Source of the DNA: Achromobacter spanius
Lineage (GTDB): Bacteria > Pseudomonadota > Gammaproteobacteria > Burkholderiales > Burkholderiaceae_B
Reading direction: 5' to 3'
Length of the DNA stretch: 64,000 nucleotides
Assembly: GCF_002812705.1 (NCBI RefSeq)
Contig: NZ_CP025030.1
Location: 2,480,001 to 2,544,000 of the forward strand
Below the pieces are notes generated by a model. It was not told the DNA's origin, did not search any database, and saw only the letters and a program-made list of their open reading frames with translations. The position numbers were made by a program, and so were the translations under genes. Position 1 is the stretch's first letter, and each line of letters starts with the position of its first letter. This document shows positions 38,993 to 60,997 of the stretch, piece by piece.

Positions 38993-39751
38993 TTACGCTT
39001 CGGCGGACGTTTCCTCAACCGCAGCCACCGCCTGCACCTGATTGATCAGGGCGGGCCAGGTATTGATCGACAGCAGATGGCAGTACACCAGCGGCAGCCA
39101 GCCGTTGGCGCGCCAGCGCAGGAACTCTTCGTCCGACAGCTTGTTGAACTTGGCTTCGTCGATCACCTTGAAGCCGGACATGGCCAGGCGCTGGCCGTCG
39201 GGCAGGGTGATGTCGGCGCGGTTCTCAACCAGCAGGTCGGCGGCGGCCAGGGCCTGCGCGAACTCCATCGTGTAGGCGTGCTGGTTCTGGTAGTCGCGGC
39301 AGAATTCCAGCGCGCTGCGGGCCAGGTCGGTGGGCTCGCCGGCCTCGTCGAAGAACGGGTTGTCGCGGCCTTCGACCACCGATGCGGCCTTCTCGTCGAC
39401 GCACAGCGTGAACTGGCTGCGGTCTTCGTTTTCCATGAATATGAAGGGATAGCGGCGGATGTAGGCCGGGATGTAGGTGCCGGCGCGCCATTGGCCGTCG
39501 GCGTCGACGAACAGGTTTTCCTGGCCGCGCACACCCAGCACTGCGACGGGCGTGGGCTGCTCACCGTCGGTGAAGACGATGGGGAAATGGCGGCACGCGG
39601 TGGGCAGCTCGGTGGCAACCAGCGGCACCGCGTTGGTGTTGGCGGCATAGGCAAAGCCCGTGTTGCCGGCCAGCGACAGGTTGGCGTGCACGCCGGCCGC
39701 CAGGGGGCGGGGTTGTTCGTAGAACAGGGGAAGCGAAGTCTGCGTAGTCAT
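38993..39751 (-). CDS. SapC-family protein
   Basis: 252 residues matching the SapC pattern: LPLFYEQPRPL near the start, FPIVFTDGEQPTPVAVLGVRG, YIPAYIRRYPFIF (a hallmark) and FCRDYQNQHAYTMEF. SapC was named from an S-layer-linked locus in Campylobacter; its biochemical role is unclear. There is no clear signal peptide. It lies 9 bases after the tpsA stop on the same strand, so it is probably co-transcribed as the third gene of a tpsB-tpsA-sapC operon and may act in surface assembly or anchoring (inferred). It ends at the bidirectional terminator. Confidence 0.85.
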   Translation of the reverse strand: MTTQTSLPLFYEQPRPLAAGVHANLSLAGNTGFAYAANTNAVPLVATELPTACRHFPIVFTDGEQPTPVAVLGVRGQENLFVDADGQWRAGTYIPAYIRRYPFIFMENEDRSQFTLCVDEKAASVVEGRDNPFFDEAGEPTDLARSALEFCRDYQNQHAYTMEFAQALAAADLLVENRADITLPDGQRLAMSGFKVIDEAKFNKLSDEEFLRWRANGWLPLVYCHLLSINTWPALINQVQAVAAVEETSAEA

Positions 39752-45700: not shown

Positions 45701-48700
45701 GCCCGACGCGGTGGACAGCGTCAGGTCGCCCGCCGTGATCTTCGACGTGTTGACCATGCCCTGGATGGAGCCGCCCGTGTAGTAGTACGGATTGGTCGAC
45801 AGGTTTACCGAGCCATTGGCCGTCACGTCGATCTCGTTCAGCGTGATCGAACCGATCGCCTGGTACGTGAAGTTCAGGCCGGTGGTGTCACGAACGATGG
45901 TCAGCGCGGTGTTGTTGCTGGTGTCGGCGCCGCTGAAGGTCAGGTTCTGGGCGTCGATGGTCAGGAAACCGGAACTGCCGTTCTGGTTGCCCATGGCGTT
46001 GTTGCGGTTGATGGACAGGTCGGTCAGGTCGGCCAGGTTATCGACATAGATGCTGCCCGGGGTGTTCAGCGTCAGCGACGGCGTGTCCAGATGGATGCGG
46101 TTGGTGTTGCCCGAGCCGATGCTGCGTGACGAGCCGTAGTCGGCCGTCAGGGTGACGCTCTTGCCGGTGATGCGGTTGCTGTTGTCCGCGCCGACGATGT
46201 TGCCGCGGTTGGTCGTCAACGCGACCGCGCCGCCGCTGGTGCTGATGGTGCCCACCACCAGATCACGGCCGGTGCTGGCGGTGTCGGCGGTCAGCGTGAT
46301 GTTGCCATCGCCGGTGACCGAGGCCGCGCGCAGCCCGTAGGTTTCAGTCAGTGCGATGCTGCCGTCCGCCGTGTCCGTCTTCTTGGCGCTCAGGTTGACG
46401 GTTGTCGTGCCGCCGCTGAGATTCGTGGTGCGGATGGCGCTCTTGTTGCCGATCGAGCCATTGGCCGTCAGGTTGACGGTGGTGGCGTTGGCGATCGTGC
46501 CGCTGAGGATCGAGCCGCCGGTGTTGTGGACGGTGAAGTCGTTGCCGTTGGTGTTGACCGAGCCCAGCTCGATGTCGCCGACGGTATTGCTGACCGCGCT
46601 GGCGCCCACCGACGTCAGGCTGGGCAGGCTGGTATTGCCTTCCACCGTGATGAACGCGCCACCGCCGACGGCGCTGCCGGACAGCGTGCTGACGCGGGTG
46701 TCGATGGCGTTGCCGGCGCCGGTGGCGCCGATGGCGTTCCTGGCGTAGAGCGTCAGCGACGCGGCGTCGATCTTGGTGTTGGCATCGCCATCGCCCAGCA
46801 ACGAGCCAAAGTTCGATGTCAGCGCAACGTTGTCGTAGCCGACGTTGATGGTACCGACGGTGATGCCGCGGTCGCTGCTGACGTTCAGGTTCAGGCCGCC
46901 CGCGTCCGTGACGTTGCCCAGCACCAGGCCGGCCGTGCTGCCGCTGCCGCCGTCGGTGGCGGTAAAGCCGATGGCGCCCTGGCCGTCGCGCGTCGGCGAA
47001 GTGATGCTGTAGGAACGCGCGTCGTTGCCCCTCGAGTACAGTGACAGCGCATCGATGTGCGTGTCGGAATCGATGTAGACGTCGCCGGTGTTCTGGATGT
47101 TCAGCACCGGGGCGGAGAGATTGATTTCGCGGCCTGCGTCGCCGATGCCGCCCGTGCCTTGGGTGGTCAGCGACACCTGGCCGGCGGTGATGCGCTTGCT
47201 GTCGTCGGCGCTGCCCAGGATGCTGTTGTTGCTGGACAGGCGCACCGTGCCGGTGGTCTGTGTATCGATGATGCCGATGTCCTGGCCCACGCTGCTCGCC
47301 AGCGACAGATTCAGGCCGGTGTTATCACGGACTTCGTTGACTTGCAGACGGCCGTCGTGGACCACGTTGAACTGCAGCTCGTTCGAGGTGATGTCGTAGG
47401 TGGCGGGCGATCCTCCGGTCGCGTACAGCGACAGGCTGGCCAGGTCTTGGTCGTTGTTCACGTAGACGTGGCTGCCGCCCGTCAGGTAGAGCTCGCTGGT
47501 TGTCGTGTTGATCTTGTCGGCCGGACTCGCGCCGATCTGGCCGGTGGCGAACAGCGATACCGAATCGCCTGTGACGTGCGAGGTGGGCGACAGGTTGACG
47601 AGGGTGCTGCCGGCGCCCGTGGCGGCCAGGCTGACGCTGTGGGCGGGGCCCGTGTCGATGGTGCCGATGTTCAGCGTGCGGTCGCCCGAGAACGAGAAGT
47701 TCAGGCCGGTGGAGTCGCGCACGTCGAACAGCTTGTAGCCGTCGTTGGTATCCGTGACGTTGAACGTCAAGCCCTGGGCCGCAACCTGGACGGTGTTGTT
47801 CACGCCCTGATCCGCGTGGTTGGCGGTGACGTTCAGGCTGAACAGGTTCGACGCGTTGTTCAGGTACAGGTTGCCGCTGGTCTGCGTGGTCAGTTGACGG
47901 GTATCGGTTTGCACCACGTTGCCGGAGGTGCCGATGGACCCCGTGGCGGTCAGCGTCAAGGAAGGGGCGACGAAGTTGCTGCCCGCGCCTTGAATGATCG
48001 ACCCATTGCTGACGTTGACTTGCGCGGAGCTGGCGACGTTGTTGTTGCCCAGCGTCAAGTTCTTGTTGTTCGAGATCCACAGGCTGCCGCGCAGGTTCGA
48101 CGACAGCTTGTCGACGCTGACATACAGCGCTTGGTTGGTGTTGTAGGTGCCCGTGACCGAGCCGGCGTTCAACGTCAGCTCGCCCGTGCTGATGTTGGGG
48201 TTGCTGGCGCTATTGCTGTTGCCGTAGATGTTGCTGCTGCTGCCCAGCGTGACGGAGCCGCCCGCGCCGGTCGCGACGTTATTGACCGTCAGCGTGCGGT
48301 CAGACGACAGGGACAGCGCCAGGTTGCTCGCGGTGGAGACGTTGTTGAGCGTCAGGCCCGAGGTGCCGGTCGAATCCGTCAGCGAGAAGGTCAGGCCGGT
48401 GGCGGAGATGCTGTACGAATGGGTCTGCGCGCCGCTGGTGTTGTGGTTCGCGGTCAGCGCCAGCGACGTCAGTTGCTTGTTGTTCGAGACAGAGACGTTG
48501 CCCGCTGACCCGATCGACAGGTTGTTGGCGCTGGTCGATGCCGTGACGCTGCCGTTCGTGTTCAGGGCATTCAGGTTGACGTTGTTGCCGGTGATCAGGC
48601 CGGATCCACCGATGGTGGGGTTGAACGTGTTGTTCGCGTAGCGCGTGGTCAGCGTCACCGAGCCCGTCGTGCCGGTATTGATCGTGCCGGCGGTGATGGC

Positions 48701-51700
48701 GGTGTCGGTGTTGACGGCCAGCGCGGCGCCGTTCATGTTGGCGGCGATCGTCAGGTTCGTGCCACCGGTGATCGACAGCGATTGGCTGCCCAGCCCGCCG
48801 AAGGAATAGGCGTTGGTGTCGAAGTTGGCGGTGCTGGACGCATCGCGGCGCGTCAGGTTCAGATCAATGCTGTCGAGCGCCCGACCGCCATTGTGCAGGG
48901 TGATGTCGCCGTTGTTGGCGATCACCAGATTGTCGGTCAGGGTGCGCAGCGCGCGGCCGCTGCTGCCGATGGCGCCGGTGTTCGCGTCGCGCGCGGTGTA
49001 GCTGTCGCTACCGATGGCCGACAGTTTGACCGTGCCGGCCGTGATGCGGCCGCTGCCGGCATCGCTGGTGATGCTGGAATTGACGCCGCCGTTGGCCGTG
49101 GCCAGGCTGACCGCGTTGCTGGCGGTGATGGCGCCCACCTGGATGTTCTTGCGGCCGGTGAAGCTGAAGTCCGTCAGCCCGCCCGTGATCTGTTCCAGGT
49201 ACTGGGTGGTGCCATCGTCGGTGATGCGGATGGTCTGGCCCGCGCCGCCGCCGATGGCGATGGTGCTGGTGCTACCCGCCGCGCGCAGGCTGTTGATGGC
49301 CAGCTTGTTCAGAACGGTGTCGCTGCCCACATAGAAATTGTTGCCCGTCAGGCTCAGCGCCGACGTGCCATTCAGGGCCAGCGTGCCGCCGGTGGCCGAC
49401 GAGCCGATCGAACCGCTTGATCCCGCCGTCAGCGAGACCGTGGCCGCGCGGATCGCGCCGGGGTTGGCCAGATCGTCGTTGGCGATGTTGCCGGCCGACA
49501 CCAGGCTGACCTTGCCGGCCGCGCCGGCATCAACATTACCGACCAGCAGGTGCTTGCCGTTGGCCGAGAATGCGAAGTCCAGATCGCTCGAGCTGGCGAT
49601 GTCTTTCAGATGAATGCCGTTGGCGTCGTCCGTCAGCGTGAAGGCCGACAGATTGTGCGCGGTGATAGCGTACGAGCCGTAGGCCGAGCCGTTGCGCGTG
49701 ATGGCCAGGCGCGTCAGGCCGGTCTCGTTGTTGACGGTGATGTCGCCGCCGCTGATCAGGCTGACGTCGGGGGCCCGCAGGGTCAGCGCGGCGCCTGCCG
49801 TGCCCAGCGTGCCAGCGGCCGACAGCGCGATGCTGCTGGCCTGGATCTTCGTGGCGGCGTCGCCGTCGTCAAGGATCGAACCGGCGCTGTTGGCCAGCGC
49901 TGCGGGGCCAGCGGCCTGCACGCTGCCGACCGTGGTCGTGCCGGAATACTGGGTGTAGCCAAGCTGGCCACCTGCCGCAAGCGACGCCAGCTTGATGTCG
50001 CCGGTGGTGCCGTTCAGGTAAAGGTCGCCGCCGGCGTTGGCCTGTACGTTGACCTGGCCTGCGCCGCCCACGCCCACATAGCGCACGCTGCCCGCGTACA
50101 TGCCGCCGATAGCGCCCGTGGCCGTCAGCGAGATGTCGCCGCCGCCCGCGTAGACGTTGCCCGAGCCGGTGCCCAGGATGGAGCCGTTGGCCGCGTTCAG
50201 CGTGACGTCGTCGTTCCAGCTTCGCACCGTGCCGGTCAGCAGCAGGTCGCCCTGGCGCGCGTCGATCTGCACCACGTCGCTTGCCGTGATGTTGCCCAGT
50301 GTGATGATGCCGGTGGTGTTGCCGGAGCCGGTGGGCTTGGGCAGCTGAGCGTAGAAGCCGCCACTGTTGGCGGAACCGGACAGGTTGCTGGTGAGGATGT
50401 CCAGATAGCCCGTGCCGGTGGCGCCGATGGCACGGCCGGCATACAGGTACACCGAGTTGGCCAGCAGCAGGGTGTTCTTGTTGCCGTCGTCGCTGATCGC
50501 GCCGGCGGAGTTCAGCGTGATGGAGCCGCCATAACCCGCATCGATACTGCCGACCGTGACGTCGCGGTCGCTGAGGAAGCTGAAGTTCACCGAGTTGCTG
50601 TCGCGCACCTCGTGAATGGTGTGACCGGTCACATCGTCGGTGATGTTGAACAGCAGCGACGGCGCGCGCACGTCCAGCACGTAGCGGTCGTCCTCGCCCT
50701 TGTGGCGAGCGGCCACCGTCAGGGAATTGAGATCCGCGATGTTGGTGGCGTACAGGTTGCCGCGCGTGTCCAGCGACAGGTTCGGGGCGTTGACCGAGAC
50801 GAAGTCGGTGCTGGTGCCGATGTCCTGGTTGGCGACAAGGCTGACGGAGCTGGCCGTGACACGCGTATTCGCAAGGCCATCGTCCAGGATGCTGCCTTGC
50901 GTGGACGTCAGCGTAACGCTGCTGCCCGCGCGGATGTTGCCCAGTTTCAGGGTCTGGTCGCCGCTGAAGATGAACTGGTTCAGCAACGAGCTGTAGACCT
51001 GCTTCAGGTCGTAGGCGTTGCCCAGGTCGTCGTTGACGTCGAACGCCAGGAAGGGCGCGGACACCAGCAGGGCGTTCTTTCTGAGCGGGTCGGAGTGTGA
51101 ATTGCTGACCGACAGGTACGTCAGCGTCTTGCCGGGGTTGTCGACGTAGATGTCGCCGCCACTACCCAAGGTCAGGCTGGTCGTGGAAGTCTTGATGTGA
51201 TCGCCGGCCGTGCCGATGTGCTGCTGTGCTTGCAGGTTGACGGCGTTACCCAGCAGTTCGCTGTTGGCATTGGCGCGCAGGATGTTGCCGCCCTGGGCGT
51301 TCAGCCACAAGGTGCCGGTGCCGGCGTCCAGCTTGTTGGCGGTCAGGTCGGCCACGCCGATGACCGAAATGCCGTTGTAGGCTTTCAGGTCATCCAGCAG
51401 CACCGAGCCCTGGGCCTGGTTGAGGTAGATGCTGCCGCCCGTGGCGCGCAGTTCACCGGCCGCCGTGCGCAGGTAGGTGCCCGACGTGCCCACGGTGTAG
51501 TTGCTGTTGGAGGCCGGGGCCAGCAGGGTGACGACGTTGCCGGTGATCAGCGATGCCGACGATCCCGTGATGCTGCCCGCGCGCGCGGTCAGCGTGACGT
51601 TGCCCGAACCCGCGTTGACCTGGCCGGCGAAGATGCTGTTGCCGGTCAGGTTGACCGCGCCGCCCGAAGAACTGACGTTATTGGCCGACACCGAGCCCGC

Positions 51701-54427
51701 GCCGTTGATCACGACCGCGGCGTTGTTGGCCTGCGCCTGGGTGATGGTCAGGCCGTTGCTGGTGCTGTCCAGGTACACGCCGCCCGCGCCCGATGTGGCG
51801 GACACGGTGCTGGCGTTGGTCTTCAAGGCGCGCGACGCGGCGCCGATGCCGCCGTTCTGCGCCGACAGCGTGAGCGCGCTGGTGGCGATCGAGGTGGCGT
51901 CATCACCGTCGTCGAGGATGTTGCCCGAGCCCGACGTCAGCGACGCGGACGCGCCCGCCTTGATGGCGCCCAGGGTCAAGTGGCCGCCCGCCCAGACGGA
52001 CAGCGCGCCGGTGGTGTCGATCGAACGCAGGGCCAGGTCGCCCAGGTTGTTCACATACACGCCGCCTGAGCCGCTTGCGGCTGTCAGCGCGCCCGTGTTT
52101 GTGGTCAACGCCAGGCCCGAGGAGCCGATGGCGCCGTTGTTGCCGGTGCTGCCCGTGGCCTTCAGCGCGATGCTGCCGGCAGTGATGCTGCCGAGGCTGT
52201 TGCGCGCCTGGATGTCACCGGCCGTGGACGTCAGCGCCAGCGCGCCCGTGCCCAGCGCAATGTTGCCGACGTTGATCGTGCGGTCGCCGGTGAACGAGAA
52301 GTTCAGGCCGGCCTGGTTGACCGTGTTCAGTTGGTAGCTGCCGTTGTCCGTCAGCGAGAAATTCAATCCGCTGGATGCCAGTTCGTAGGTGTTGTTGACG
52401 CCGGGTTGCGCGTGGCGGCTGGTGATGTCCAGCGTGTTCAGCACCGAGCGGTTGGCCACGGCCAGGTTGCCGCCGGTGGCGAGCGCCAGCCGCGTGGTCT
52501 GGGTGTTGACCGCGTTGCCGGCTTCACCGATGCTGCCGCCGCTGGCGTCCAGCGTGACGGTGTTGCCCGTCACCACCTGGTTGGCGCCACCCACGTTGCG
52601 GATGGTGCCCGCGCTGGTGCGGACCAGCGCCGCGCCGCTGCCGGCATCAATGACGTTGGCCAGGTTGATGTCGCCGGTGGCGTTCAGCGTGATCGTGCCG
52701 CCCCGGCTGGTCAGCTTGCCGATGTTGTTCAGCGTGCTGCCCACGCCCAGCGCTTCCAGCGTGATGGCGCCGCCCTGGGTGCTGATTTCCGTATTCGAAT
52801 TCTCGAAGCGGATGCCGCCCGTTTGCGTCGAGCGCAGCGTGAAGCTGTTGCCCGAGGTGGTTTGCAGATTGATCGCGGCCATGTCCGCGATGGTGATCTG
52901 GCCGGTGGCTTCCAGCTTGATGTTGGTGGTGCCGGCCAGGCTTTCCAACAGGCCGCGCGACACGGTGTTGTTGGCCGCGTTGGCGTCGCCGCCGTTGACG
53001 GTGCCGTCACCGGCGCTGCCGTCCAGCGCGCCCGATCCGCTGCCGGAATCGACGATGCGCAGATCGGTCGGGTCGATCAGCAGCAGGCCCGTCTTGCCCT
53101 TGGGCGCGCGCATGTCCACCGAACCGGTCAGGCCGATGTTCTTCTTGCTGGAGACTTCGGCAAAGCCGCCGTCACCGCCTTGTTCACCGCCACGCGCCGA
53201 CAGGCTGCCGGCAAACGCCGTGGCGTCGTTGGACCACATCGTGACGTTGCCGCCGTTGCCCTTCACAAGCGCATCGGCCTTGAGCGTGGCGCCCGCCGCC
53301 ACCTTGACGGTGGACGACTTGCCGCTGAACGCGGCCGAGCCATTGTCCGGGGCCACGCCCAGGCTGCCCAATGCAATCTCGCCGCCGCCCGCGGCGCCCG
53401 AGACGTCGATGGCCGCGCTGCGTGTCACGTCCACGTGTTCGCCGGTGACGACGACCTTGCCGCCTTGCCGGCCCGCGCCCACGCCCGTGGCGTCCACCTT
53501 GCCGGCGATCTTCACGGTGCCGGCATCGCCGCCGGACAGCACGATCTTGCCGTTCTGCATGCCCACCGATTGGGCGCTGATGATGCCGTCGGTGTTGACC
53601 ACGTTGTCGATCACGCCCTTGACGGCGCGTGCCGTCAGCAGCACCGTGCCGCCGTCGGCGCGGATGACGCCGCTGTTGGTCACCAGCGCCGATACCGGTT
53701 TGCCGTTGGCGTCCTTGGGCAGTTCGTTGACGGTGGAGGTGGCGTCGAAGCTGAGCAGCCCGTCGCCCTGGAAGTCGACGGTGACGGTGTTGGCGCCGGC
53801 CAGGGCCACGCGGCCCAGCTTGGCCTGGATCACGCCCGAGTTGCGTACCGACGGCGCCACCAGCGCGGCCAGGCCGCTGTCCTTGATGCTGATCGTGCCT
53901 TCGTTCACGATCATGGCATTGGCCTTGGACGAGGCCTGGTTGAACTTGTAGTTGCCGGCCAGGAAGTCCTTGTCGCTGATGTTCGCCGTGGTGGCGACGA
54001 GGCCGCCCACGTCGATGCGCGCACCCTTGCCGAACACCACGCCGTTCGGGTTCACCAGCATTACCGTGCCGTTGGCGTTCAATCTGCCGAAGATCGCCGA
54101 GGGGTCATTGCCGACCACGCGGTTCAGCGTGACGCTCTTGCCGCCGGGCTGACGGAAGTTGACCGTCTCGTTGGCGCCGATGTTGAAGTCTTTCCAGTTG
54201 ATGATGGCCTTGCCGGTCGACTGGTTGATGTCCAGCGTGCCGTTGCCACGGTCGACGATGGTGGCCGAGCCCCCAACCACGTTGCCGCCGGTGGGGTTGG
54301 CGTGCGCGCCGCTTGAGGCAAGCGAGCCGATCAGCACGGCCAGCGTGCTGAGGGCGGGCAGGGCGGCGTCTTTCTTCGAGCGCGAGCGGCGAGCGGATGG
54401 GGCGAGGCTGCGGGAATTGCGATTCAT
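39761..54427 (-). CDS. Giant two-partner-secretion adhesin (TpsA, filamentous-haemagglutinin/HMW-type)
   Basis: 4,888 residues, among the largest bacterial proteins and longer than B. pertussis FhaB. Residues 1-44 are a long basic signal sequence ending AHA before NPTGGN. The TPS domain (about 45-300) has LDINQSTGKAIINWKDFNIG and VNPNGVVFGKGARIDVGG, the NPNG-type motif recognised by the TpsB partner. Next come hundreds of degenerate beta-helix rungs. Residues about 600-3,700 have recurring modules with LNFSFTGDRTINVGNI, SILDDGDDAT and SVSLxAxxxIG. Residues about 3,736-4,519 form a distinct repeat block. I see no cysteine, as expected for a protein threaded unfolded through TpsB. There is no evident membrane anchor, toxin or FhaB-like processing domain; the end is polar (DDERRANDAQSRTL). 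Long open frames on the other strand are codon-bias shadows. Confidence 0.92.
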   Translation of the reverse strand: MNRNSRSLAPSARRSRSKKDAALPALSTLAVLIGSLASSGAHANPTGGNVVGGSATIVDRGNGTLDINQSTGKAIINWKDFNIGANETVNFRQPGGKSVTLNRVVGNDPSAIFGRLNANGTVMLVNPNGVVFGKGARIDVGGLVATTANISDKDFLAGNYKFNQASSKANAMIVNEGTISIKDSGLAALVAPSVRNSGVIQAKLGRVALAGANTVTVDFQGDGLLSFDATSTVNELPKDANGKPVSALVTNSGVIRADGGTVLLTARAVKGVIDNVVNTDGIISAQSVGMQNGKIVLSGGDAGTVKIAGKVDATGVGAGRQGGKVVVTGEHVDVTRSAAIDVSGAAGGGEIALGSLGVAPDNGSAAFSGKSSTVKVAAGATLKADALVKGNGGNVTMWSNDATAFAGSLSARGGEQGGDGGFAEVSSKKNIGLTGSVDMRAPKGKTGLLLIDPTDLRIVDSGSGSGALDGSAGDGTVNGGDANAANNTVSRGLLESLAGTTNIKLEATGQITIADMAAINLQTTSGNSFTLRSTQTGGIRFENSNTEISTQGGAITLEALGVGSTLNNIGKLTSRGGTITLNATGDINLANVIDAGSGAALVRTSAGTIRNVGGANQVVTGNTVTLDASGGSIGEAGNAVNTQTTRLALATGGNLAVANRSVLNTLDITSRHAQPGVNNTYELASSGLNFSLTDNGSYQLNTVNQAGLNFSFTGDRTINVGNIALGTGALALTSTAGDIQARNSLGSITAGSIALKATGSTGNNGAIGSSGLALTTNTGALTAASGSGGVYVNNLGDLALRSIDTTGALSVWAGGHLTLGAIKAGASASLTSGSGNILDDGDDATSIATSALTLSAQNGGIGAASRALKTNASTVSATSGAGGVYLDSTSNGLTITQAQANNAAVVINGAGSVSANNVSSSGGAVNLTGNSIFAGQVNAGSGNVTLTARAGSITGSSASLITGNVVTLLAPASNSNYTVGTSGTYLRTAAGELRATGGSIYLNQAQGSVLLDDLKAYNGISVIGVADLTANKLDAGTGTLWLNAQGGNILRANANSELLGNAVNLQAQQHIGTAGDHIKTSTTSLTLGSGGDIYVDNPGKTLTYLSVSNSHSDPLRKNALLVSAPFLAFDVNDDLGNAYDLKQVYSSLLNQFIFSGDQTLKLGNIRAGSSVTLTSTQGSILDDGLANTRVTASSVSLVANQDIGTSTDFVSVNAPNLSLDTRGNLYATNIADLNSLTVAARHKGEDDRYVLDVRAPSLLFNITDDVTGHTIHEVRDSNSVNFSFLSDRDVTVGSIDAGYGGSITLNSAGAISDDGNKNTLLLANSVYLYAGRAIGATGTGYLDILTSNLSGSANSGGFYAQLPKPTGSGNTTGIITLGNITASDVVQIDARQGDLLLTGTVRSWNDDVTLNAANGSILGTGSGNVYAGGGDISLTATGAIGGMYAGSVRYVGVGGAGQVNVQANAGGDLYLNGTTGDIKLASLAAGGQLGYTQYSGTTTVGSVQAAGPAALANSAGSILDDGDAATKIQASSIALSAAGTLGTAGAALTLRAPDVSLISGGDITVNNETGLTRLAITRNGSAYGSYAITAHNLSAFTLTDDANGIHLKDIASSSDLDFAFSANGKHLLVGNVDAGAAGKVSLVSAGNIANDDLANPGAIRAATVSLTAGSSGSIGSSATGGTLALNGTSALSLTGNNFYVGSDTVLNKLAINSLRAAGSTSTIAIGGGAGQTIRITDDGTTQYLEQITGGLTDFSFTGRKNIQVGAITASNAVSLATANGGVNSSITSDAGSGRITAGTVKLSAIGSDSYTARDANTGAIGSSGRALRTLTDNLVIANNGDITLHNGGRALDSIDLNLTRRDASSTANFDTNAYSFGGLGSQSLSITGGTNLTIAANMNGAALAVNTDTAITAGTINTGTTGSVTLTTRYANNTFNPTIGGSGLITGNNVNLNALNTNGSVTASTSANNLSIGSAGNVSVSNNKQLTSLALTANHNTSGAQTHSYSISATGLTFSLTDSTGTSGLTLNNVSTASNLALSLSSDRTLTVNNVATGAGGSVTLGSSSNIYGNSNSASNPNISTGELTLNAGSVTGTYNTNQALYVSVDKLSSNLRGSLWISNNKNLTLGNNNVASSAQVNVSNGSIIQGAGSNFVAPSLTLTATGSIGTSGNVVQTDTRQLTTQTSGNLYLNNASNLFSLNVTANHADQGVNNTVQVAAQGLTFNVTDTNDGYKLFDVRDSTGLNFSFSGDRTLNIGTIDTGPAHSVSLAATGAGSTLVNLSPTSHVTGDSVSLFATGQIGASPADKINTTTSELYLTGGSHVYVNNDQDLASLSLYATGGSPATYDITSNELQFNVVHDGRLQVNEVRDNTGLNLSLASSVGQDIGIIDTQTTGTVRLSSNNSILGSADDSKRITAGQVSLTTQGTGGIGDAGREINLSAPVLNIQNTGDVYIDSDTHIDALSLYSRGNDARSYSITSPTRDGQGAIGFTATDGGSGSTAGLVLGNVTDAGGLNLNVSSDRGITVGTINVGYDNVALTSNFGSLLGDGDANTKIDAASLTLYARNAIGATGAGNAIDTRVSTLSGSAVGGGAFITVEGNTSLPSLTSVGASAVSNTVGDIELGSVNTNGNDFTVHNTGGSILSGTIANATTVNLTANGSIGNKSAIRTTNLSGGTTTVNLSAKKTDTADGSIALTETYGLRAASVTGDGNITLTADTASTGRDLVVGTISTSGGAVALTTNRGNIVGADNSNRITGKSVTLTADYGSSRSIGSGNTNRIHLDTPSLTLNTPGSIYVDNLADLTDLSINRNNAMGNQNGSSGFLTIDAQNLTFSGADTSNNTALTIVRDTTGLNFTYQAIGSITLNEIDVTANGSVNLSTNPYYYTGGSIQGMVNTSKITAGDLTLSTASGNTTNSIGSSSRALNTQVNNISATASGGIWLSQAGSINLGNLRAGEDLSVTTTTGDILVGTVSYGTDKTLTLNAQNGSILDGGGAISGSGTGAITLTAKNGIGTNDAAVKIAAPYNPVSATVTGDGSLYLDSTGNLLGGLTTSVANGETRVTSTGNLVLNSMTSATDAAGNGISVNTTSGNITVKNVQAGSTQGQITLNAENGYVLADAAGATIKAYGVALNARYGIGANTSTGRINATGQRVEATTNGAMYLAADNNSVYSYLSGNTIDIAAAGNLQIANAIASNGSGTIKIVGNGTNSQLVAGNIDAGTGTVNIDYSKAGSTIVDDREESTRIIGNSVTLKAGAGIGGAEGSADNLQTTAASITAEVTGNGSIFLDDNRAAGTTLNSIITQNGAIGITTAGPTLVTSAITKTNSADNDISIATSKGDLSINTIDAMASGDVTLKAAGSILGALASNLVYGNSLTATAGGSIGTATNLANGTGGIALRTNLASLGDLTTGADGAVIVLNNVGTRALTLNGDVTQAGDNSSVYIRSSGDLDARSGLSNTADNLLLSSAGTLTIAGAGVQANDTVTLVGTRDVVAAGATPRTIAVTGDTLNFTSGAAGGNTALTTEAANANVSLTGITAPANLTLNNTGALTAALSTANGNITANATGTLDASATASGSNRIIDLSSQHGDVAFGLIDAGDANGSVILAAAEGSLLGAGINITTNSLDLTSKTGIGDASASFNTSARYLTANVVGAGDIIVDGTGALTLGRIATADGHIQIASVDDLISTVGLSAGNHGDIFLGSVSGNVGVNHAIASNEANNLAVIGAQIGLAAVHTAGSQSYDGDVTLNGDLTGTAIDITGNATLAGGKRTLTANGVGGGVNVWGSLNGGNQQAVINANDGDVTLGGNASNLASLNIDGATIDLQGVSTTGAQQYNGDTTLRGLYTTANGAFGVDGDTVLGSGVNVVTGNGAVAFTGDVSGANALTVTTTGTTTYGGAVSTASLSQLGTGITALDGGSVTTTGAQYYAGRVVLGDDTALTGSTITLADGADGAHALDIDGAASLAGAIGANTKLASLTITGPATLTTSSIATTGNQHYQDAVTLGSDQSLSTTTGNVTFDGALIGTRNVVIDSTAGGDISLNAVGSAGQRLGNLTANTAGATTFNGAVYAASAQTDAPGTVAINGGLVDTTGAQTFRELVTLGADTVLKGSIISLLGGGDGEHGLTIDGETVLKGAFGAQEALASLTINGTSSLDGSIGTTGEQSYNGAVSLDGDVALATQGGNITFNDKVASSQGDGHDLSLSAGAGNVTFTNTIGDNTGGRLGDITIASKGATTLNDVVYAASITSDVGGTIGINGGLVDTTGTQSYGERAIFSGDTVLKGSTVSLLGGGDGAHDLTIDGDAVLKGPLGAQNALASLTVNGKSTLGAGSIATTGDQSYSGAVTLGGNVSVASRDGDIRFNDALDGGHDLTVSAGKGNVDFTAPIGQGSRLGNLTVAAAGDIVLDGPVRAASLQTRGNGDVLINGGSVNTTGSQQYGQHVILSGVDTTLTGTNVQLKAGVDGTVSGQQGLIIAGNADIQGDVGATTPLRGLAVQGTTTMGTGKVVTTGDQVYTGAVTLTGDRELTSNTGSVVLGSKLDGGNGNNLAINAGKHVQVAGDATGLGSLTLRAVDTIVFNGDVSAYRVQQLEAKSASYNGAVRASGPDGIDISGGKVSFGKDVTADTGSIRIANTDPTGTTSFGAGSTVKAATGFTQTGGAGLTLPAQLLVTRGPINLGAPATLQGANATISTNGDITAVGLMGPQTELTLAAGPLGALRIGLNDANLSHKLNVASLTVPTAGSADVWGTIGGKTDAVAAASIKSSLVGAPYYLNGVTWGPTGIIDRLSSITVPQPIIPTTPTADALFRGTVPSDGFGPDALGAYADPQVLQVATATYNWQLPSGDNAMLSTPAGNNAVLQTPGSTPQQPVAEGNPSSDDERRANDAQSRTL
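40870..43220 (-). repeat. C-terminal repeat block of the giant adhesin
   Basis: In translation (about residues 3,736-4,519) a module of roughly 170 residues recurs about four times, plus partial copies. It follows the pattern TTGxQxYxxxVxLxxDTxLxGSxxxL, GxDGxHxLxIDGxxxLxGxxGAxxxLASL, xxxxxIxTTGxQxYxGAVTLxxDxxL. TTG-x-Q occurs at least ten times. On the + strand the motif shows as CCCGT(G/C)GT-type triplets near 40,905, 41,125, 41,420, 41,635, 41,945, 42,150, 42,450, 42,665 and 42,940. Confidence 0.8.
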
Positions 54428-54451
54428 GGTCGGTCTCTTGTCGTTCGCTGC

Positions 54452-56185
54452 TTAGTACTGCGCCGAAATGCTGAAGAACACGCGGGGATTCTTGTTGCCC
54501 TGGGTCAGCACGTCCGTGCTGGTGGGCTTGGCCACTTCAAGCGTGGCGTACAGGCTCTTGCTGAGGTTGGCGCGCATGCCCGCCCCGATGGAGGACACGT
54601 TGGCGCGCGTCAAGGGCGCGCTTTCGCTGCGCGACCAGATGCGGCCGCCATCAATGAACGAATAGACGTGCGCGCCGTGCGGCAGGAAGTTGTCGGTGGA
54701 CACCGCATAGCGCAGTTCCAGCGAGCCGGCCAGGCCGGAGTCGGCGGACATTTCGCCGTCGTCGTAACCGCGGCCGAAGTTGGGGCCGCCCAGCGCGAAT
54801 TCCTCGCTGGCCAAAAGCGGGCTGGCGCTGTATTGGCCGGCGAAGGTGGCCACGAACGACAGGCGTTCGGTGAGCTGTTGCAGACGGGTCAGTTCGGCGG
54901 TGAGCTTCAGGAAATCCGAACGGCCCTTGGCGCGCGAGGCCAGTTCGGAGCCTTCTTGCGTGGCGCCCATTGCGTCCAGGCCCTGGTGCACGGTGCCGCG
55001 GATGGCGGTGATGCCGTTCCAGCTGTCGGTGCGGTCATAGCTCAGGCCCGCGCGCAGCACACGCAGGCGGTCGCGCGTGAAGGGGGTTTCGGTGATGTCG
55101 GTGGCCACGTTGCGCACGTCGAACATGCCGAAGGCGCGCAGGTTTTCCAGGCGCGAGCGGATCAGCGGATAGGTCAGTGTGGCGGTGTAGGCCTGCACGT
55201 CGCTGGCGACGTTCAGCGGGGCCAGGTCGCGGCCCGGCTCGCTCTTGGCATAGCTGGCGGCCAGGCCGAAAGTCATGCCGCTGTCGGAAACCAGCATGTC
55301 GTAATTGCCGGCCACGGCCTGGCTGCGGTAGGCCGGAAAGCCCAGACGCCCGCTCAGCGTGAAGGTGTCGGCGCGCGCGCCGAACGAATTCAGCGTGACC
55401 TGACCGGTCATTTCGCTCCAGCCCAGGTAGGGCGAGCCACGGTTGTCGAAGCCCAGGCGCGCATCGACGGGCTTGCGTTCGCTATGCACCACCAGCACCG
55501 AGCCGCCTACTTCCTTGGGCGAGGCTTCCAGCGAGGCGCGCACGACCATGCCGCTCAGATCATTGGCCAACAGCAGTTGGCGTTCGACCTCGGCCACATT
55601 GATCGGGCGCACGCCGCGCAGGCGCTGCACCAGCTTTTCAACCGCCGCTTGCGCGGGGCCGATATCGCCGTCGTACTTCACGTCCGATACATAGCCTTCG
55701 ACCACCACGATGCGGAAGACCCCGCCGTCGACCGTCTGCTCCGGCACGATGACGCGCGTGGTCACGTAGCCGTCGTTGCGGTAGAGCAGTTCGATGTCGT
55801 TGGCCACCTTGAAGGCGTCGGCCACCGTGATCGTCTTGCCCACCAGCCCCTGATAGAACGCGCTGATCTTTTCGGGGGAATAGTGGGTCACGCCGTCCAC
55901 GCGCATGTTGCTCAGCGTGAAGTTCAGCTTGTCGGCGCCGGCCGGCGCCTCGGACGCGCTGCCTTGCTGCACCGTCACCTGGGGCGCGCCGGTCGTGCTT
56001 TCGGGCATGGCCGGTTGCGGCAGGGCGCGGCCCGGCTCGGCGGCCGACGGCAATTGCGGACGCACGCTTTGCGCCATGACCGGTCCGGCGGCCAGCGCCA
56101 GGGCCGTAGTCGCAAGGCCGATATGCAAGGAAATGGGGGTCAGACAGAGGACAACGGGACGGCAGAATCGAGATAGGCGGCGCAT
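54452..56185 (-). CDS. TpsB outer-membrane transporter (FhaC/ShlB family)
   Basis: 577 residues. A signal peptide ends at PVMAQ (about residue 39), followed by a Pro-rich linker (40-85). Two POTRA domains (about 86-165, 166-236) include FTLSNMRVDGVTHYSPEKI and GGVFRIVVVEGYVSDV. The 16-strand barrel includes DNRGSPYLGWSE and the loop-6 motif FGRGYDDGE (near residue 472), and ends RVFFSISAQY with a terminal aromatic. It binds the TPS domain of the giant adhesin and threads it across the outer membrane. The tpsB stop is 24 bases before the tpsA ATG. The start has a poor Shine-Dalgarno, so initiation may be regulated or weak. Confidence 0.92.
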   Translation of the reverse strand: MRRLSRFCRPVVLCLTPISLHIGLATTALALAAGPVMAQSVRPQLPSAAEPGRALPQPAMPESTTGAPQVTVQQGSASEAPAGADKLNFTLSNMRVDGVTHYSPEKISAFYQGLVGKTITVADAFKVANDIELLYRNDGYVTTRVIVPEQTVDGGVFRIVVVEGYVSDVKYDGDIGPAQAAVEKLVQRLRGVRPINVAEVERQLLLANDLSGMVVRASLEASPKEVGGSVLVVHSERKPVDARLGFDNRGSPYLGWSEMTGQVTLNSFGARADTFTLSGRLGFPAYRSQAVAGNYDMLVSDSGMTFGLAASYAKSEPGRDLAPLNVASDVQAYTATLTYPLIRSRLENLRAFGMFDVRNVATDITETPFTRDRLRVLRAGLSYDRTDSWNGITAIRGTVHQGLDAMGATQEGSELASRAKGRSDFLKLTAELTRLQQLTERLSFVATFAGQYSASPLLASEEFALGGPNFGRGYDDGEMSADSGLAGSLELRYAVSTDNFLPHGAHVYSFIDGGRIWSRSESAPLTRANVSSIGAGMRANLSKSLYATLEVAKPTSTDVLTQGNKNPRVFFSISAQY

Positions 56186-56573
56186 GGGGGAATCGAACGG
56201 CGGCTTGTTACATTTGGAATTGATAGATGCTATTTGACATATAACTCACGCTTGGGTACACAACATTTTTGCAACCGCCAAGCGCTCAGATATGCCTTCG
56301 CTCGTGACGCCGTCATTGGGTAGATACCGGAAAACAAAGGGAAATTCAGATTCCATCAGCCTGTGGCGGCGACACCACAAAGCGCCGGAATCTCGGGTGA
56401 TCTGACCAGTTTCGCGCTGTAACAAACATTATCGTAAGTACGCAAATATTCCATTACCGAGGTTTGCTGGAATGTCAGGTAGGTTTGCCGCAAGGAAAAT
56501 TATTCGAACCGGGGCCTCGGTTTTGTCTCTTGTTACCAACGTCAACGTCGGCCGGCATGAAAGAATGCGCGGC
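56186..56573. other. Divergent control region between tpsB and the response regulator
   Basis: This 388-base gap is AT-richer than its surroundings, especially 56215-56275 and 56420-56510. It must hold promoters for the adhesin operon and for the regulatory pair. The clearest structure is the direct repeat at 56460-56488. I see no gene here; a short open extension of the response regulator upstream of 56574 lacks a ribosome site. Confidence 0.55.
56460..56488 (+). promoter_or_regulatory. AGGTTTGC direct repeats, 21-base spacing
   Basis: AGGTTTGC at 56460-56467 and again at 56481-56488, offset by exactly 21 bases (two helical turns). Proteins with AraC-type HTH domains typically contact direct half-sites at about this spacing, and the gene 85 bases downstream encodes one. 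Confidence 0.4.
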
Positions 56574-57404
56574 ATGAACGATGCCTTCTTTCCGCTGGCT
56601 CCGGGCCAGCTCGCCGGTTTGCGCGTATTGGTGGTCGAGGATCGCCCCGAAGACCGCATGCTGCTCGTGGATTTCCTGACCAGTCAGGACTGCCGGGTCT
56701 ATGTGGCCGAGGACGGCAACGACGGCTACCGCAAGGCGCAACTGGTGCAGCCGGACATCATCCTGATGGACGTGAACATGCCGGTCTGCGACGGCCTTGC
56801 CGCCTGCCGCCTGCTGAAAGCCGACCAGGCCACGCGCGCCATTCCCCTCATCTTCCTGACCGCGGCTTGCCTGCCCGGCGAACGGGTGGCGGGGCTGTCG
56901 GCGGGCGCCGTCGATTACGTGGCCAAGCCGTTTGATTTCGAGGAAGTGCGCCTGCGCCTGCTGATTCATCTGCGGGTGGCTGCAACGCCCATGCCGGTGC
57001 CCGCATCGTCGCCGGCCGTGGCCGAGGCCAGCGCGGAAGACGGCACATCCGCTGCCGCCGCCGGGGCCACGCTGGACGGCGTGTTGTTTCGCGCGGCGCG
57101 CAAGCTGCTGCGCGAACGGCTGGATCACACGCCCGAACTGATGGCGCTGGCCCAGGCGCTGAATACCAACGCGCGGCGGCTGAACCAGGCGTTCCGGCGC
57201 TGCGCGGGCACGACCGTGTTCGAGTTCCTGCGCGAAGAGCGCATGCGCGAGGCGCGCCGCCTGCTGTGCGAAACCAGCCTGGATATCCAGGCCATTTCGC
57301 AGGCGGTGGGGTATGGCAACCGTGGCAATTTCTCTACGGCTTTTCGCGAACGCTTCGGCATGCCGCCCACGGCCTTGCGCCAGGAACTGGATCCCCATGC
57401 GTGA
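56574..57404 (+). CDS. Response regulator with AraC-type DNA-binding output
   Basis: 276 residues from the ATG at 56574; an ATG at 56565 is also possible. The receiver (about 15-130) has VVEDRPEDR acidic pocket, phospho-acceptor Asp66 in IILMDVNMP, Thr in IFLTAA and Lys118 in YVAKPFD. An Ala/Ser-rich linker (about 135-170) leads to an AraC-type HTH pair (about 185-272: LMALAQALNTNARRLNQAF, IQAISQAVGYGNRGNFSTAFRERFGMPPTALRQ). Its stop overlaps the hybrid kinase start by eight bases, so they are coupled. It is divergent from the tpsB-tpsA-sapC operon and is the best candidate for its regulator. Confidence 0.9.
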   Translation: MNDAFFPLAPGQLAGLRVLVVEDRPEDRMLLVDFLTSQDCRVYVAEDGNDGYRKAQLVQPDIILMDVNMPVCDGLAACRLLKADQATRAIPLIFLTAACLPGERVAGLSAGAVDYVAKPFDFEEVRLRLLIHLRVAATPMPVPASSPAVAEASAEDGTSAAAAGATLDGVLFRAARKLLRERLDHTPELMALAQALNTNARRLNQAFRRCAGTTVFEFLREERMREARRLLCETSLDIQAISQAVGYGNRGNFSTAFRERFGMPPTALRQELDPHA

Positions 57405-60117
57405 GCGCCGCCTGGGCTTGCCGGGTTGGCTGCCGTTGTTGTCGTTGTTGTTGTCGACGTTGTTGGCCATGGCTTGCCTGCTGCTGCCCGTGCAAGCGCA
57501 GGCCGCGCCGCCGCCGGTGGACCTGAGCGCCGTCACCGGCAAATTGCCGCTGAACCACGAACTGCTGGGCGTGGAAGACTCGGCCGGCACGCTGGAACCC
57601 AGCCAGATCCTGGACGGCCCCTGGCAGCCCGTCACGCCCGCCTGGTTGAACCGGGGCTTTTCGCCATCCGTGTACTGGCTGAAGCTGGACGTGCACAACC
57701 CCACCTATCGCTTCCTGGAACGCTGGTTGTCCTTTGGCGTACCCAGGCTGGAAGACGTGCGCTTCTACCTGTATCACGACGGTGAGCGAGAACCCTTCAA
57801 AGTGGTGCTGGCGGGCAACCGCGAGCCGCTCGCCTCGCGCGAAGTGCCGTCTTCCGTGTCGGTGGCCTCGCTGCTGCTGATGCCGGGTGAACGCGTGACG
57901 GTGCTGGTCAGGGTGCAGAGCCGCTCGGCCATCAGCATGGAACCCACCTTGTGGACGCCGGCGGCATTCGTGGACGCGGCGCAGCGCGGCACGGTGGTCC
58001 TGGCGCTGCTGATCGGCGCGCTGCTGATGGTGGCGATCTACACCGGCGTGCTGGGCGTGGCCCAGCGCGATCAGGTGTTCCTGTTTCTGGCCGCCGCCAT
58101 CATCATCGAAATTCTCTACAGCCTGTCGTTTCAGGGTTTGCTGTACCGCTACGTACTGACGGGCGGCGGTGAAACGGTGTTGCGCGCGCCCAGTGTGCTG
58201 GGGACGCTGGCGGCCACGGTGTTCGGCTATACCGTGATGCGGTTCGCGGACTTGCATCGTGTGCGGCTCTGGCGCTGGGTGTATGGCGTGCTGATCGCCC
58301 TGGGCCTGGCGGGCTCGGTCTGGGCGGCGCTGGGCGAGTATCGCGCCAGCGCGCAGGCCGTGGTCGGACTGGTCTTCCTGTGGGGGCTGGTATGGCCGGT
58401 TTCCATGGCCGATGGCTGGCGGCGCGGGCACGCCAATGCGCGGATCTTCCTGCTGTCCTTCGCGGTGTATTGCGCCTTGCTCTTCTTGCGGCTGGCCTTC
58501 ATCAACGGGCTGCTGCCCGGCCGGTGGGAAGGTGGGCCCGAGGTGGCTTGGGACCTGTTGTCGGTGTCGCTGATGCTGGCCGTGCTGGTGCATGGCCGCA
58601 CGCGCCAGCATCGTCAGGAAAAACTGGCGGTCCAGCAGGAACTGACGCAAGCGCGCGAACGCGAACATCTGCGGCTGGACCAGGCCGTCAAGGCGCGCAC
58701 GCGGGCGTTGCAGGCGGCGTTGATTCGGGCTGACGAAGCCGGCCGCGTGCGCCAGGACTTCCTGGCCCGAATCAGCCATGACCTGCGCACGCCGCTGACG
58801 TCCATCATCGGCTTCGCGGACCTGATCCAGGCGGGCGGCCGCGACGACGCGCCGCGCGGGGCGATCATTCGTCGCAGCGCCGATCACATGCTGAGCATGG
58901 TGAATGACCTGATCGATTACGCCGCCGGCGCGGGCGGCCAGGCGCTGCGCGTGTCTCCTGAATACGTGCACGCCTTGCTGGACGCCGTCGCCAAGGAATC
59001 CGCGCCGATCGCCGCCCGGCAGAACAACCAATTCGTGTTGCGGGTGTCGGAGTCGGTACCTGCCGTGTTGGAAATGGATGGCAAGCGCGTGCGGCAGGTG
59101 CTGTCCAACCTGATCGACAACGCCGCCAAGTTCACGCGCGGCGGCGTCCTGACCTTGACCGCCGACTACATCGCGCCCGATTCGGGCGACGCGATCGAGG
59201 GTGCGGGACGGCTCGCACTGTCGGTGCGCGACACCGGCTGCGGCATTGCGCCGGAAGACCGGCAGCGCATCTTCGAACCCTTCCAGCGGCTGGCTTCCGC
59301 CGAGAACCAGCCGGGGGTGGGACTGGGCCTGCCCATCGTGCAGCAATGGGTGCAGCGCATGAAAGGCGCGATCAGCATCGACAGCGAGGTGGGGCAGGGG
59401 ACGCGGGTCAGCGTCACGCTGCCGGTCAGGAAGATGGACGAGTCCCGCATCTCGCATCACTACATTGCCGCCGCGCCGCATGTGCTGCCGATGCTGGACG
59501 GATCCGGCAAGCACCTGTGGCTGGCCGAGGACACGCCGGAGATTCGGGAGTTCCTGGTCGAGGAACTGGCCAGCATGGGCTTTCAGGTGGATAGCGAGGC
59601 CGGTGGCCAGGGCATGGTGGCGCGCATCCAGGCAGACGACGCCCGCCGTCCCGACCTGATCCTGACGGACCACCGCATGGACGGCGTCGACGGCTCGGCC
59701 GTGCTGGCAGCCGCCCGCGCGCGCTGGCCGGACCTGCCCGTCGTCGCGGTGTCGGCAACGCCCCACGACACGCAGGCCTTGGGCGGCGCGGGCTACGACG
59801 CCAGCTTGCTCAAGCCCATCAACCTGGTTGAGCTTCGCCATGTGCTGGGCAGGCTGTTGAATCTGTCGATCAAACCCTCAAGCAACGAGATGGACTCGGC
59901 CCCACCGCAGACGGCGCATCTGTCCGACGCCGAGCTGGCGCAGGTGCAATTGCTGCTGGAAAGCGGCGCCATCTCGGACCTGATCGATTGGGCGCAGGCA
60001 TTGCAGGCGCGCGATGCGGCGTTCAAGGATTTCAGCGAACAACTGCGGCGCATGGCCAGGCAAGGCGACATCGCGGCGATCCGCAAGCTGTGCGAGACCA
60101 TGCGGGAACACACCTGA
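57397..60117 (+). CDS. 7TM-DISM hybrid sensor histidine kinase
   Basis: 906 residues. A signal or anchor segment (about 10-36) precedes an extracytoplasmic 7TMR-DISM2-type domain (about 40-190: WLNRGFSPSVYWLKLDVHNP, RWLSFGVPRLEDVRFYL). Seven membrane helices follow (about 197-400), a coiled-coil (405-450), then HisKA with His461 in ARISHDLRTPLTSI, HATPase with NLIDNAAKFT, DTGCGIAP and GVGLGLPIV, and a C-terminal receiver (about 717-825) with the phospho-acceptor Asp in LILTDHRMDG. An 80-residue helical tail follows, without an evident HPt histidine. Phosphate probably passes from kinase or receiver to the coupled regulator at 56574. The DISM domain may sense a carbohydrate or other envelope ligand. 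Confidence 0.9.
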   Translation: MRERRLGLPGWLPLLSLLLSTLLAMACLLLPVQAQAAPPPVDLSAVTGKLPLNHELLGVEDSAGTLEPSQILDGPWQPVTPAWLNRGFSPSVYWLKLDVHNPTYRFLERWLSFGVPRLEDVRFYLYHDGEREPFKVVLAGNREPLASREVPSSVSVASLLLMPGERVTVLVRVQSRSAISMEPTLWTPAAFVDAAQRGTVVLALLIGALLMVAIYTGVLGVAQRDQVFLFLAAAIIIEILYSLSFQGLLYRYVLTGGGETVLRAPSVLGTLAATVFGYTVMRFADLHRVRLWRWVYGVLIALGLAGSVWAALGEYRASAQAVVGLVFLWGLVWPVSMADGWRRGHANARIFLLSFAVYCALLFLRLAFINGLLPGRWEGGPEVAWDLLSVSLMLAVLVHGRTRQHRQEKLAVQQELTQAREREHLRLDQAVKARTRALQAALIRADEAGRVRQDFLARISHDLRTPLTSIIGFADLIQAGGRDDAPRGAIIRRSADHMLSMVNDLIDYAAGAGGQALRVSPEYVHALLDAVAKESAPIAARQNNQFVLRVSESVPAVLEMDGKRVRQVLSNLIDNAAKFTRGGVLTLTADYIAPDSGDAIEGAGRLALSVRDTGCGIAPEDRQRIFEPFQRLASAENQPGVGLGLPIVQQWVQRMKGAISIDSEVGQGTRVSVTLPVRKMDESRISHHYIAAAPHVLPMLDGSGKHLWLAEDTPEIREFLVEELASMGFQVDSEAGGQGMVARIQADDARRPDLILTDHRMDGVDGSAVLAAARARWPDLPVVAVSATPHDTQALGGAGYDASLLKPINLVELRHVLGRLLNLSIKPSSNEMDSAPPQTAHLSDAELAQVQLLLESGAISDLIDWAQALQARDAAFKDFSEQLRRMARQGDIAAIRKLCETMREHT

Positions 60118-60178
60118 CCGCGAACGATCCCGGCACCGTAAACTGCCGTTGATTGGCGATATGAAAAGGGAGATCACT

Positions 60179-60997
60179 GTGCTGCATTTGCCGAACACAT
60201 CGATCATCGAAGGAAACGCCGTCAGGTGGGGAACGTGCGGCGAAGGGCCGCCGTTGGTGGCTATCCATGGCACGCCGTTTTCCTCGCAGGTATGGCGCAG
60301 GATCGTGCCGGCGTTCGCGGATCGCAGAACGGTTTATGTCTTTGACCTGGTGGGTTACGGGCAGTCTGAAATGCGCGATGGGCAAGACGTGTCGCTGGCG
60401 GTGCAGAACAAGGTGCTGGCGGCCTTGTTCAAGGAATGGGAGCTTGATCGCCCGGACGTCCTGGCGCATGACTTTGGCGGAGCCACCGCGTTGCGTGCCT
60501 ACTATCTGGACGGCTTGCGCTACGGCTCCTTGACGATCTTTGACGCCGTGGCGCTGGCCCCGTGGGGCTCGCCTTTCGTGCAGCACGTGCGCAAGCACGA
60601 AGGCGCGTTCGCGGGAATGCCCGACTATATGCATCGCGCGCTGCTGCACGCATATCTACAGACGGCGGCCAGCCAACCGCTCTCGGATGAAGCGCTGGAT
60701 GTGTATAGCCGGCCGTGGCTGGGCGAGATCGGCCAACCCGCCTTTTACCGGCAAATTGCGCAGATGGATCAGAAGTACACCGACGAGGTCCAGGGCATGT
60801 ATGGGCGGATGGACTGCCCCGTGCAGGTGCTATGGGGCGAGAACGACAACTGGATTCCGCACGCGAAAGGCGAAGCCTTGGCGGCGCTGATTTCGGGCGC
60901 GCCGTGTATGCCGATTGCGCATGCCGGCCATCTTGTTCAGGAAGATCGGCCCGAAGCGATTGTGGCGGCGGTGCTGAAGCAGATTGCGGGGACTTGA
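60179..60997 (+). CDS. Alpha/beta-hydrolase with Asp nucleophile (haloalkane-dehalogenase/epoxide-hydrolase-like)
   Basis: 272 residues from a GTG at 60179, six bases after AAGGGAG; the in-frame ATG at 60161 has no ribosome site. Oxyanion motif HGTP (30-33), nucleophile elbow AHDFGG with Asp98, a cap domain about 125-205, and catalytic His in GHLVQEDRPE near the end. Asp in place of Ser suggests an alkyl-enzyme mechanism, as in epoxide hydrolases and haloalkane dehalogenases. The halide-stabilising Trp after the nucleophile is Phe here, so dehalogenation is not assured. No signal peptide. It follows the kinase by 61 bases and may be a separate unit. Confidence 0.8.
   Translation: MLHLPNTSIIEGNAVRWGTCGEGPPLVAIHGTPFSSQVWRRIVPAFADRRTVYVFDLVGYGQSEMRDGQDVSLAVQNKVLAALFKEWELDRPDVLAHDFGGATALRAYYLDGLRYGSLTIFDAVALAPWGSPFVQHVRKHEGAFAGMPDYMHRALLHAYLQTAASQPLSDEALDVYSRPWLGEIGQPAFYRQIAQMDQKYTDEVQGMYGRMDCPVQVLWGENDNWIPHAKGEALAALISGAPCMPIAHAGHLVQEDRPEAIVAAVLKQIAGT

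Follow-up and report, generated by a model that had tools for sequence, protein, structure and literature searches.

The 64,000-nucleotide stretch of Achromobacter spanius DNA dealt with here, hereafter "the window" (positions 2,480,001 to 2,544,000 of contig NZ_CP025030.1, assembly GCF_002812705.1), belongs to a host genome of 6.43 Mb assembled as a single contig and carries a two-component pair, consisting of a response regulator with a receiver (REC) and an AraC-type domain and of a hybrid histidine kinase with a seven-helix DISM sensor, which is divergent from a two-partner secretion (TPS) operon encoding a giant exoprotein. The features that make up this arrangement are the following.

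38993..39751, minus strand: sapC, third operon gene (PF07277)
39761..54427, minus strand: tpsA, 4888-aa exoprotein with N-terminal TPS domain (PF05860)
54452..56185, minus strand: tpsB, two-partner secretion transporter (POTRA_2 and ShlB, Pfam)
56206..56270, minus strand: conserved tpsB promoter region TTGTnTAC..TATrTCAAATA..TGTAAC
56418..56434, plus strand: conserved block TGTAACAAACATTATCG before the regulator, similar in genome G203 and present in a TGTTACA form in G068 and G198 (G, C and L numbers are our handles for genomes, contigs and loci)
56460..56509, plus strand: leader block with two GTTTGC repeats, a candidate AraC-type operator or leader element
56565..57404, plus strand: REC-AraC response regulator (Response_reg and HTH_18/HTH_AraC, Pfam)
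57397..60117, plus strand: 7TMR-DISM hybrid histidine kinase (Pfam domains)

The two-component pair and the operon it faces

The kinase most likely starts at ATG 57397, which yields a protein of 906 aa (934 in the longest open reading frame, ORF) and makes its start overlap the regulator stop by 8 nt. Its Pfam domains are, in this order, 7TMR-DISMED2, 7TMR-DISM_7TM, HisKA, HATPase_c and Response_reg, followed by a C-terminal tail, and sequence motifs are found in both proteins of the pair, namely the His, N, G1 and G2 boxes of the kinase and the receiver Asp and Lys. No histidine phosphotransfer (HPt) domain is detected by Pfam in the kinase, nor in its 86-residue tail (E 0.1), HPt genes elsewhere in the genome not having been searched for; likewise, Pfam finds no Venus-flytrap, PAS or LuxR-type output domain in kinase or regulator. 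The AraC output and the DISM sensor devoid of Venus-flytrap and HPt domains, both called in the initial annotation of this DNA, are therefore borne out. The only solved structures whose sequences match the sensor are 3jyb, 9jpe and 2xbz, three closely similar chains of which one is named RetS, with a profile match to RetS-type structures of ~1e-6. Indeed, the architecture (DISMED2, 7TM, HisKA, HATPase and REC) is the same as that of the RetS/LadS-type DISM hybrid kinases of Pseudomonas; unlike RetS, which acts through GacS, the Achromobacter kinase has a single REC, and its gene overlaps that of a REC-AraC partner of its own.

The preferred start of the regulator is ATG 56565, or else 56574, its Response_reg domain covering residues 52-161 of the longest ORF (Pfam), and a further in-frame ATG occurs at 56472. 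The 31-residue N-terminal extension that would begin at this last codon was considered and rejected, the differences not being concentrated at third codon positions (981, 1260 and 991 for positions 1, 2 and 3); the frame is open over the same length (93 nt) in 16/16 genomes of the regulator-side alignment, which comprises 13 Achromobacter genomes plus G203, G068 and G198. Since the third-position excess is absent upstream of 56565, the stretch 56472-56564 is provisionally treated as leader DNA or RNA and not as a translated extension.

On the other side of the intergenic region tpsB, tpsA and sapC likely constitute one operon, judging from their common strand and their spacing (24 bp between tpsB and tpsA, 9 bp between tpsA and sapC), the third gene having been missed in the initial annotation. 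Both components of a two-partner (type Vb) secretion system are present, a POTRA/ShlB transporter and an exoprotein with an N-terminal TPS domain; the latter (PF05860) lies near the N-terminus of tpsA (9e-39), a whole-length Pfam scan having returned none, and the remainder of tpsA, scanned in pieces, contains no Pfam domain. As to a toxin/immunity system of the contact-dependent inhibition type, no Pfam domain is found in the last 888 tpsA residues, where an undescribed toxin domain may lie, and the next gene is sapC. This gene lies beyond tpsA in 9/9 other tpsA loci checked, where it is each time better conserved than the tpsA C-terminus, and its retention even in genomes devoid of the pair (G159, G100 and G061) indicates that tpsB-tpsA-sapC forms an independent unit; no paper pairing SapC with two-partner secretion was found in the open-access literature, searched without full texts. 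A terminator scan downstream of sapC gave none; by direct reading GGCCGGC..GCCGGCC followed by a T run is seen there, the loop of which probably exceeds what the scan can pick up.

Distribution in Achromobacter and the shared intergenic region

A search of 43 Achromobacter genomes, with E thresholds of 1e-100 for the kinase, 1e-40 for the regulator and 1e-60 for tpsB, found the kinase in 13 genomes, which are also those that have the regulator, and tpsB in 14. In all 13 pair-positive genomes (the window and 12 fetched loci, the contig ending within tpsB in G178) the pair is divergent from tpsB, so that the divergence from a filamentous adhesin operon noted in the initial annotation is confirmed; among the named relatives having the same locus are A. 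kerstersii LMG 3441 and A. pulmonis LMG 26696. The pair is absent from the other 30 genomes, 29 of which are likewise without tpsB at these thresholds. In the family (268 genomes) the sensor domain occurs in 18 genomes, weakly in one of them (G135), whereas 21 genomes have a tpsB orthologue, the counts being 16 for both, 2 for the sensor alone, 5 for tpsB alone (pairless at the thresholds used) and 245 for neither; the Fisher test on this co-occurrence is not corrected for relatedness. The pair and its tpsB arrangement in Achromobacter are more than chance. Conservation of the whole block across the family, which the initial annotation had suggested looking for, does not hold, the block being present in 13/43 Achromobacter genomes and in 0/225 family genomes outside the genus.

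The start codons of regulator and tpsB are 379 bp apart. On the regulator side the 16 aligned genomes share the block TGTAACAAAC..TATC, which reads TGTTACAGAC.. in G068 and G198, as well as the leader block, whose GTTTGC repeats are exactly 21 bp apart in 16/16 genomes, such spacing being typical of AraC-type direct repeats. Invariant columns amount to 33/50 in the leader block vs 3/46 upstream of it, where the three invariant columns make up the beginning of the TGTAACA block. On the tpsB side, TGTAAC occupies the aligned promoter position in 13/13 genomes in which the pair is adjacent vs 0/8 in which it is not, and may be regarded as the nearest thing to evidence that the regulator acts at tpsB. 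A sigma-70 promoter scan of the intergenic region found none.

Neighbours of related regulators

Outside Achromobacter the closest pairs, by regulator identity, are those of G203 (87%), G068 and G198 (71%) and G077 (52%), and all four adjoin Clostridium_P47/TULIP genes, not tpsB. These genes, which are divergent from the pair in G203, G068 and G198 and convergent in G077, occur in 6/268 family genomes, G248 being included with a match below the curated cut-off. The premise that the pair is dedicated to one giant adhesin thus finds no support. Occurrence of the pair apart from the adhesin, one half of what the initial annotation had taken to speak against its own proposal, is seen in these four genomes and in the distant G135, in the sense that tpsB does not adjoin the pair; three of the five (G068, G198 and G077) carry an orthologous tpsB elsewhere in the genome. 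A tree built from 34 regulators places the Achromobacter rows together with P47-linked G203 (99/98 support), the remaining own-family rows of the clade that holds them being P47-linked too, and since the Achromobacter regulators are nested among P47-linked ones, the simplest history would be that the tpsB adjacency is derived. In G077 (L191:322-7819 with L045:13353-14720) an Ig-like-domain autotransporter gene heads the run convergent with the pair; after it come two P47 genes confirmed by Pfam and one more gene that tblastn relates to these.

Across the order, the regulator search (389 genomes) yielded 20 places in 17 genomes, corresponding to 19 loci including the window, all of which were opened, five of them within contigs or stretches not exceeding 10 kb. 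Adhesin-type neighbours are found at 10/19 loci, and at 7/19 the neighbour is a giant secreted protein encoded divergently (five families). The seven giants are the TPS exoprotein of the window, YadA adhesins at the two G544 loci, autotransporter-type PATR-repeat proteins in G293 and G513 (with a transposase-like ORF in between in the latter), an RTX protein on G359 contig C84 and, in G571, an ESPR protein truncated where the contig ends; the other three neighbours are fimbrial ushers in G013 and G610 and convergent OmpA and SdrD/DUF11 surface proteins in G467. Searching the order with the sensor gave 64 places in 49 of 399 genomes; the 18 places ranking next after the window were examined, of which 8 have a regulator beside the kinase and 10 do not. 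These ten unpaired kinases served as control: adhesin neighbours are found at 0/10 of them, as judged by eye from the ORF lists and by Pfam scanning of two long ORFs, one of which encodes a NACHT-WD40 protein and the other a protein without family. The window fits the lineage defined here by a related regulator, a DISM kinase and a surface-adhesin neighbour; in the lineage as a whole the adhesin neighbour is limited to the 10/19 loci mentioned above, and no similar kinase was seen beside the regulator in G467, at the second G544 locus, and in G313, G356, G013 and G610.

Relatives occur also on plasmids, 91 plasmid records matching the G544 regulator and 63 that of the window; phage records gave no match. 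Eight plasmid regions were opened and an adhesin gene adjoins in three: a YadA gene is divergent from the regulator in Paraburkholderia aromaticivorans and in Burkholderia cenocepacia (DISM kinase confirmed), and in Variovorax paradoxus 2u118, where a DISM kinase (confirmed) and an efflux-type outer-membrane gene lie nearby, a BapA-like gene adjoins two regulator ORFs and is divergent from the second. On a B. multivorans plasmid the YadA gene is ~5.6 kb off, with other regulators intervening, two Pandoraea regions have an autotransporter heptosyltransferase gene downstream, and the V. paradoxus SPNA7 region is cut by the record end. The Burkholderia, Paraburkholderia and Variovorax plasmid pairs share the regulator family and have a YadA-type or BapA-type partner; unlike the Achromobacter kinase, those of B. 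cenocepacia, V. paradoxus and G544 have no recognised C-terminal REC.

Two-component genes beside giant adhesins have a precedent in the B. cenocepacia trimeric autotransporter adhesin (TAA) cluster BCAM0218-BCAM0228, in which histidine kinases and response regulators are reported to be interspersed with giant trimeric adhesin genes and a signalling cascade was proposed to control the adhesins (PMC3404963). That cluster, compared here at the level of adhesin class and gene order, differs in both. Neither this pair nor REC-AraC/DISM regulators beside adhesins were recognised in the open-access literature, searched as above, so that the surmise of an undescribed system stands inasmuch as no describing paper was found.

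Some neighbouring genes may be mentioned in passing. Downstream of the kinase lie genes for an alpha/beta hydrolase, an FAD-linked oxidase and a sulfatase, which look unrelated to the pair; the hydrolase ORF (60014-60997) overlaps the kinase end as listed and its likely start is at ~60158. The genome of the window has 8 TPS-domain genes, and outside the window four such genes (~930-960 aa) are in tandem within 10 kb (G000:C1:1497303-1507085). At L167:9621-17329 a chaperone-usher fimbrial operon is flanked by two REC-AraC-type regulators. The NACHT-WD40 protein (1740 aa) of the control set is convergent with an unpaired DISM kinase of G467 (L127:11843-17065), ~83 kb from the regulator of that genome.

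A proposed surface-attachment switch

The reading that we favour, and hold to be rather probable, is that the pair is a portable two-component surface-attachment switch that in this locus controls tpsBA-sapC. In its favour stand the divergence from tpsB in 13/13 pair-positive Achromobacter genomes, the co-occurrence of sensor and tpsB in the family, the adhesin-type neighbours at regulator loci vs none at unpaired kinases, the adhesin genes adjoining plasmid regulators, and TGTAAC at the adjacent tpsB promoters. The periplasmic DISMED2 domain, a sequence relative of the RetS one, would bind an outside ligand, probably a glycan or another cell-surface compound, and the ligand signal, transmitted through the seven-helix domain, would set the kinase/phosphatase state. 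Because no HPt is found in the kinase, direct transfer of the phosphate from the HisKA His to the REC-AraC partner is proposed, the C-terminal REC of the kinase presumably tuning this transfer. The phosphorylated regulator would bind the AraC-type repeats at its own leader, giving rise to autoregulation, and within the shared intergenic region may act, possibly by direct binding at tpsB, on tpsB-tpsA-sapC, either raising or lowering the display of the exoprotein.

Several observations weigh against this reading. In this genome the 21-bp-spaced repeat occurs free of mismatches only at the leader of the regulator itself, and with ≤2 mismatches it gives 19 matches vs 11 for a reversed control, tpsB being the site of none. 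The genome search for a further operator copy at tpsB was accordingly negative, a one-mismatch match lying elsewhere. The tpsB promoter core TTGTnTAC..TATrTCAAATA is also present, with variation, in the pairless G159, G204, G100, G120 and, most weakly, G061, so that it provides no evidence for this regulator and was discarded as a regulator-specific element. As to TGTAAC, the 13 adjacent genomes represent one lineage and the motif occurs once, unaligned, in the non-adjacent G061. Among the Achromobacter genomes G159 alone has tpsB-tpsA-sapC without the pair; there, tpsB comes after a glycosyltransferase region (L043:6169-17000) that resembles N4-receptor genes. The distant G135 pair (42% and 32%) has GGDEF-EAL and ParA-like genes and no adhesin nearby, and the same lack of an adhesin is seen with the B. 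glumae plasmid pair. At the loci of the order not counted above, the regulator faces an exopolysaccharide operon in G596 (not counted as adhesin), belongs in G005 (L169:8087-14424) to a tandem of two REC-AraC-type regulators that adjoins a type III secretion gene of the YscD type, and has no recognised surface gene nearby in 7/19 cases (G440, G359 contig C20, G313, G356, G517, G574 and G449), a sulfotransferase facing it in G517 and G574. Finally, the excess of adhesin neighbours at regulator loci vs unpaired kinases (Fisher p 0.005 when any adhesin-type neighbour is counted, 0.03 when only divergent giant proteins are) must be read with the caution that the neighbour classes were set by eye after looking, that related genomes are not independent and that the control is small (10 loci).

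Many of these points would be accounted for if the pair regulated mainly itself and a dispersed regulon (e.g., biofilm or surface genes), its adjacency to tpsB being derived and largely the passive result of the place at which pair or operon was inserted. This explanation, which we consider unlikely, draws on the P47 genes beside the closest pairs and the grouping with G203 that makes the adjacency look derived, on a tpsB promoter core independent of the pair and a likely operator at the regulator only, and on the seven loci without a surface gene; it has to contend with an adjacency kept in 13/13 genomes, although 30/43 genomes of the genus lack the pair, and with the adhesin neighbours of regulator relatives in other families. 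A further reading, close to that of the initial annotation, which saw in the arrangement an echo of bvgAS and a possible virulence- or biofilm-type switch dedicated to one giant adhesin, is a master virulence switch of the BvgAS type dedicated to one adhesin. In Bordetella, two-component genes are likewise divergent from a giant two-partner-secretion exoprotein (fhaB) and this order is what the proposal has in its favour; unlike BvgAS, however, the pair has a DISM sensor instead of a Venus-flytrap, no PAS or HPt found in the kinase and an AraC (HTH_18/HTH_AraC) instead of a LuxR-type (GerE) output, differences in Pfam domains on which membership of that system was rejected, and, unlike at BvgAS/fhaB, tpsB and sapC sit in the facing operon. 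With other partners elsewhere and host species that are a minority of the genus, this proposal is very improbable. That the adjacency means little, surface-protein genes being common in these genomes, is suggested by the eight TPS-domain genes counted above, by the frequency of type V genes in the order and by a kinase control of 10 loci, and is hardly credible in view of the 0/10 adhesin neighbours in that control and of a rough binomial for at least 7 of 20 loci (6e-12 to 7e-10 if the background is taken as 0.5 to 1 percent), which overstates the case because the background is assumed, the loci are 19 and not 20 and only 10 families are involved.

It is conceivable, though we would not go as far as calling it probable, that the old REC-AraC/DISM lineage constitutes a general adhesin switch in the order, in which the sensor and the autoregulatory leader were kept while the adhesin across the shared promoter was exchanged, each target gaining an element such as TGTAAC. 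The exchanged classes would include two-partner systems, classical and trimeric autotransporters, RTX/BapA proteins and, perhaps, fimbriae and P47 proteins. Should this be true, one regulator family would point to loci of adhesin control in many Burkholderiales-type bacteria, also in those whose adhesin class is unknown; these loci would offer a natural series for studying how new targets on the far side of a shared promoter come under a regulator, and the widespread, little-understood DISM sensor would gain a concrete output, attachment, for ligand assays.

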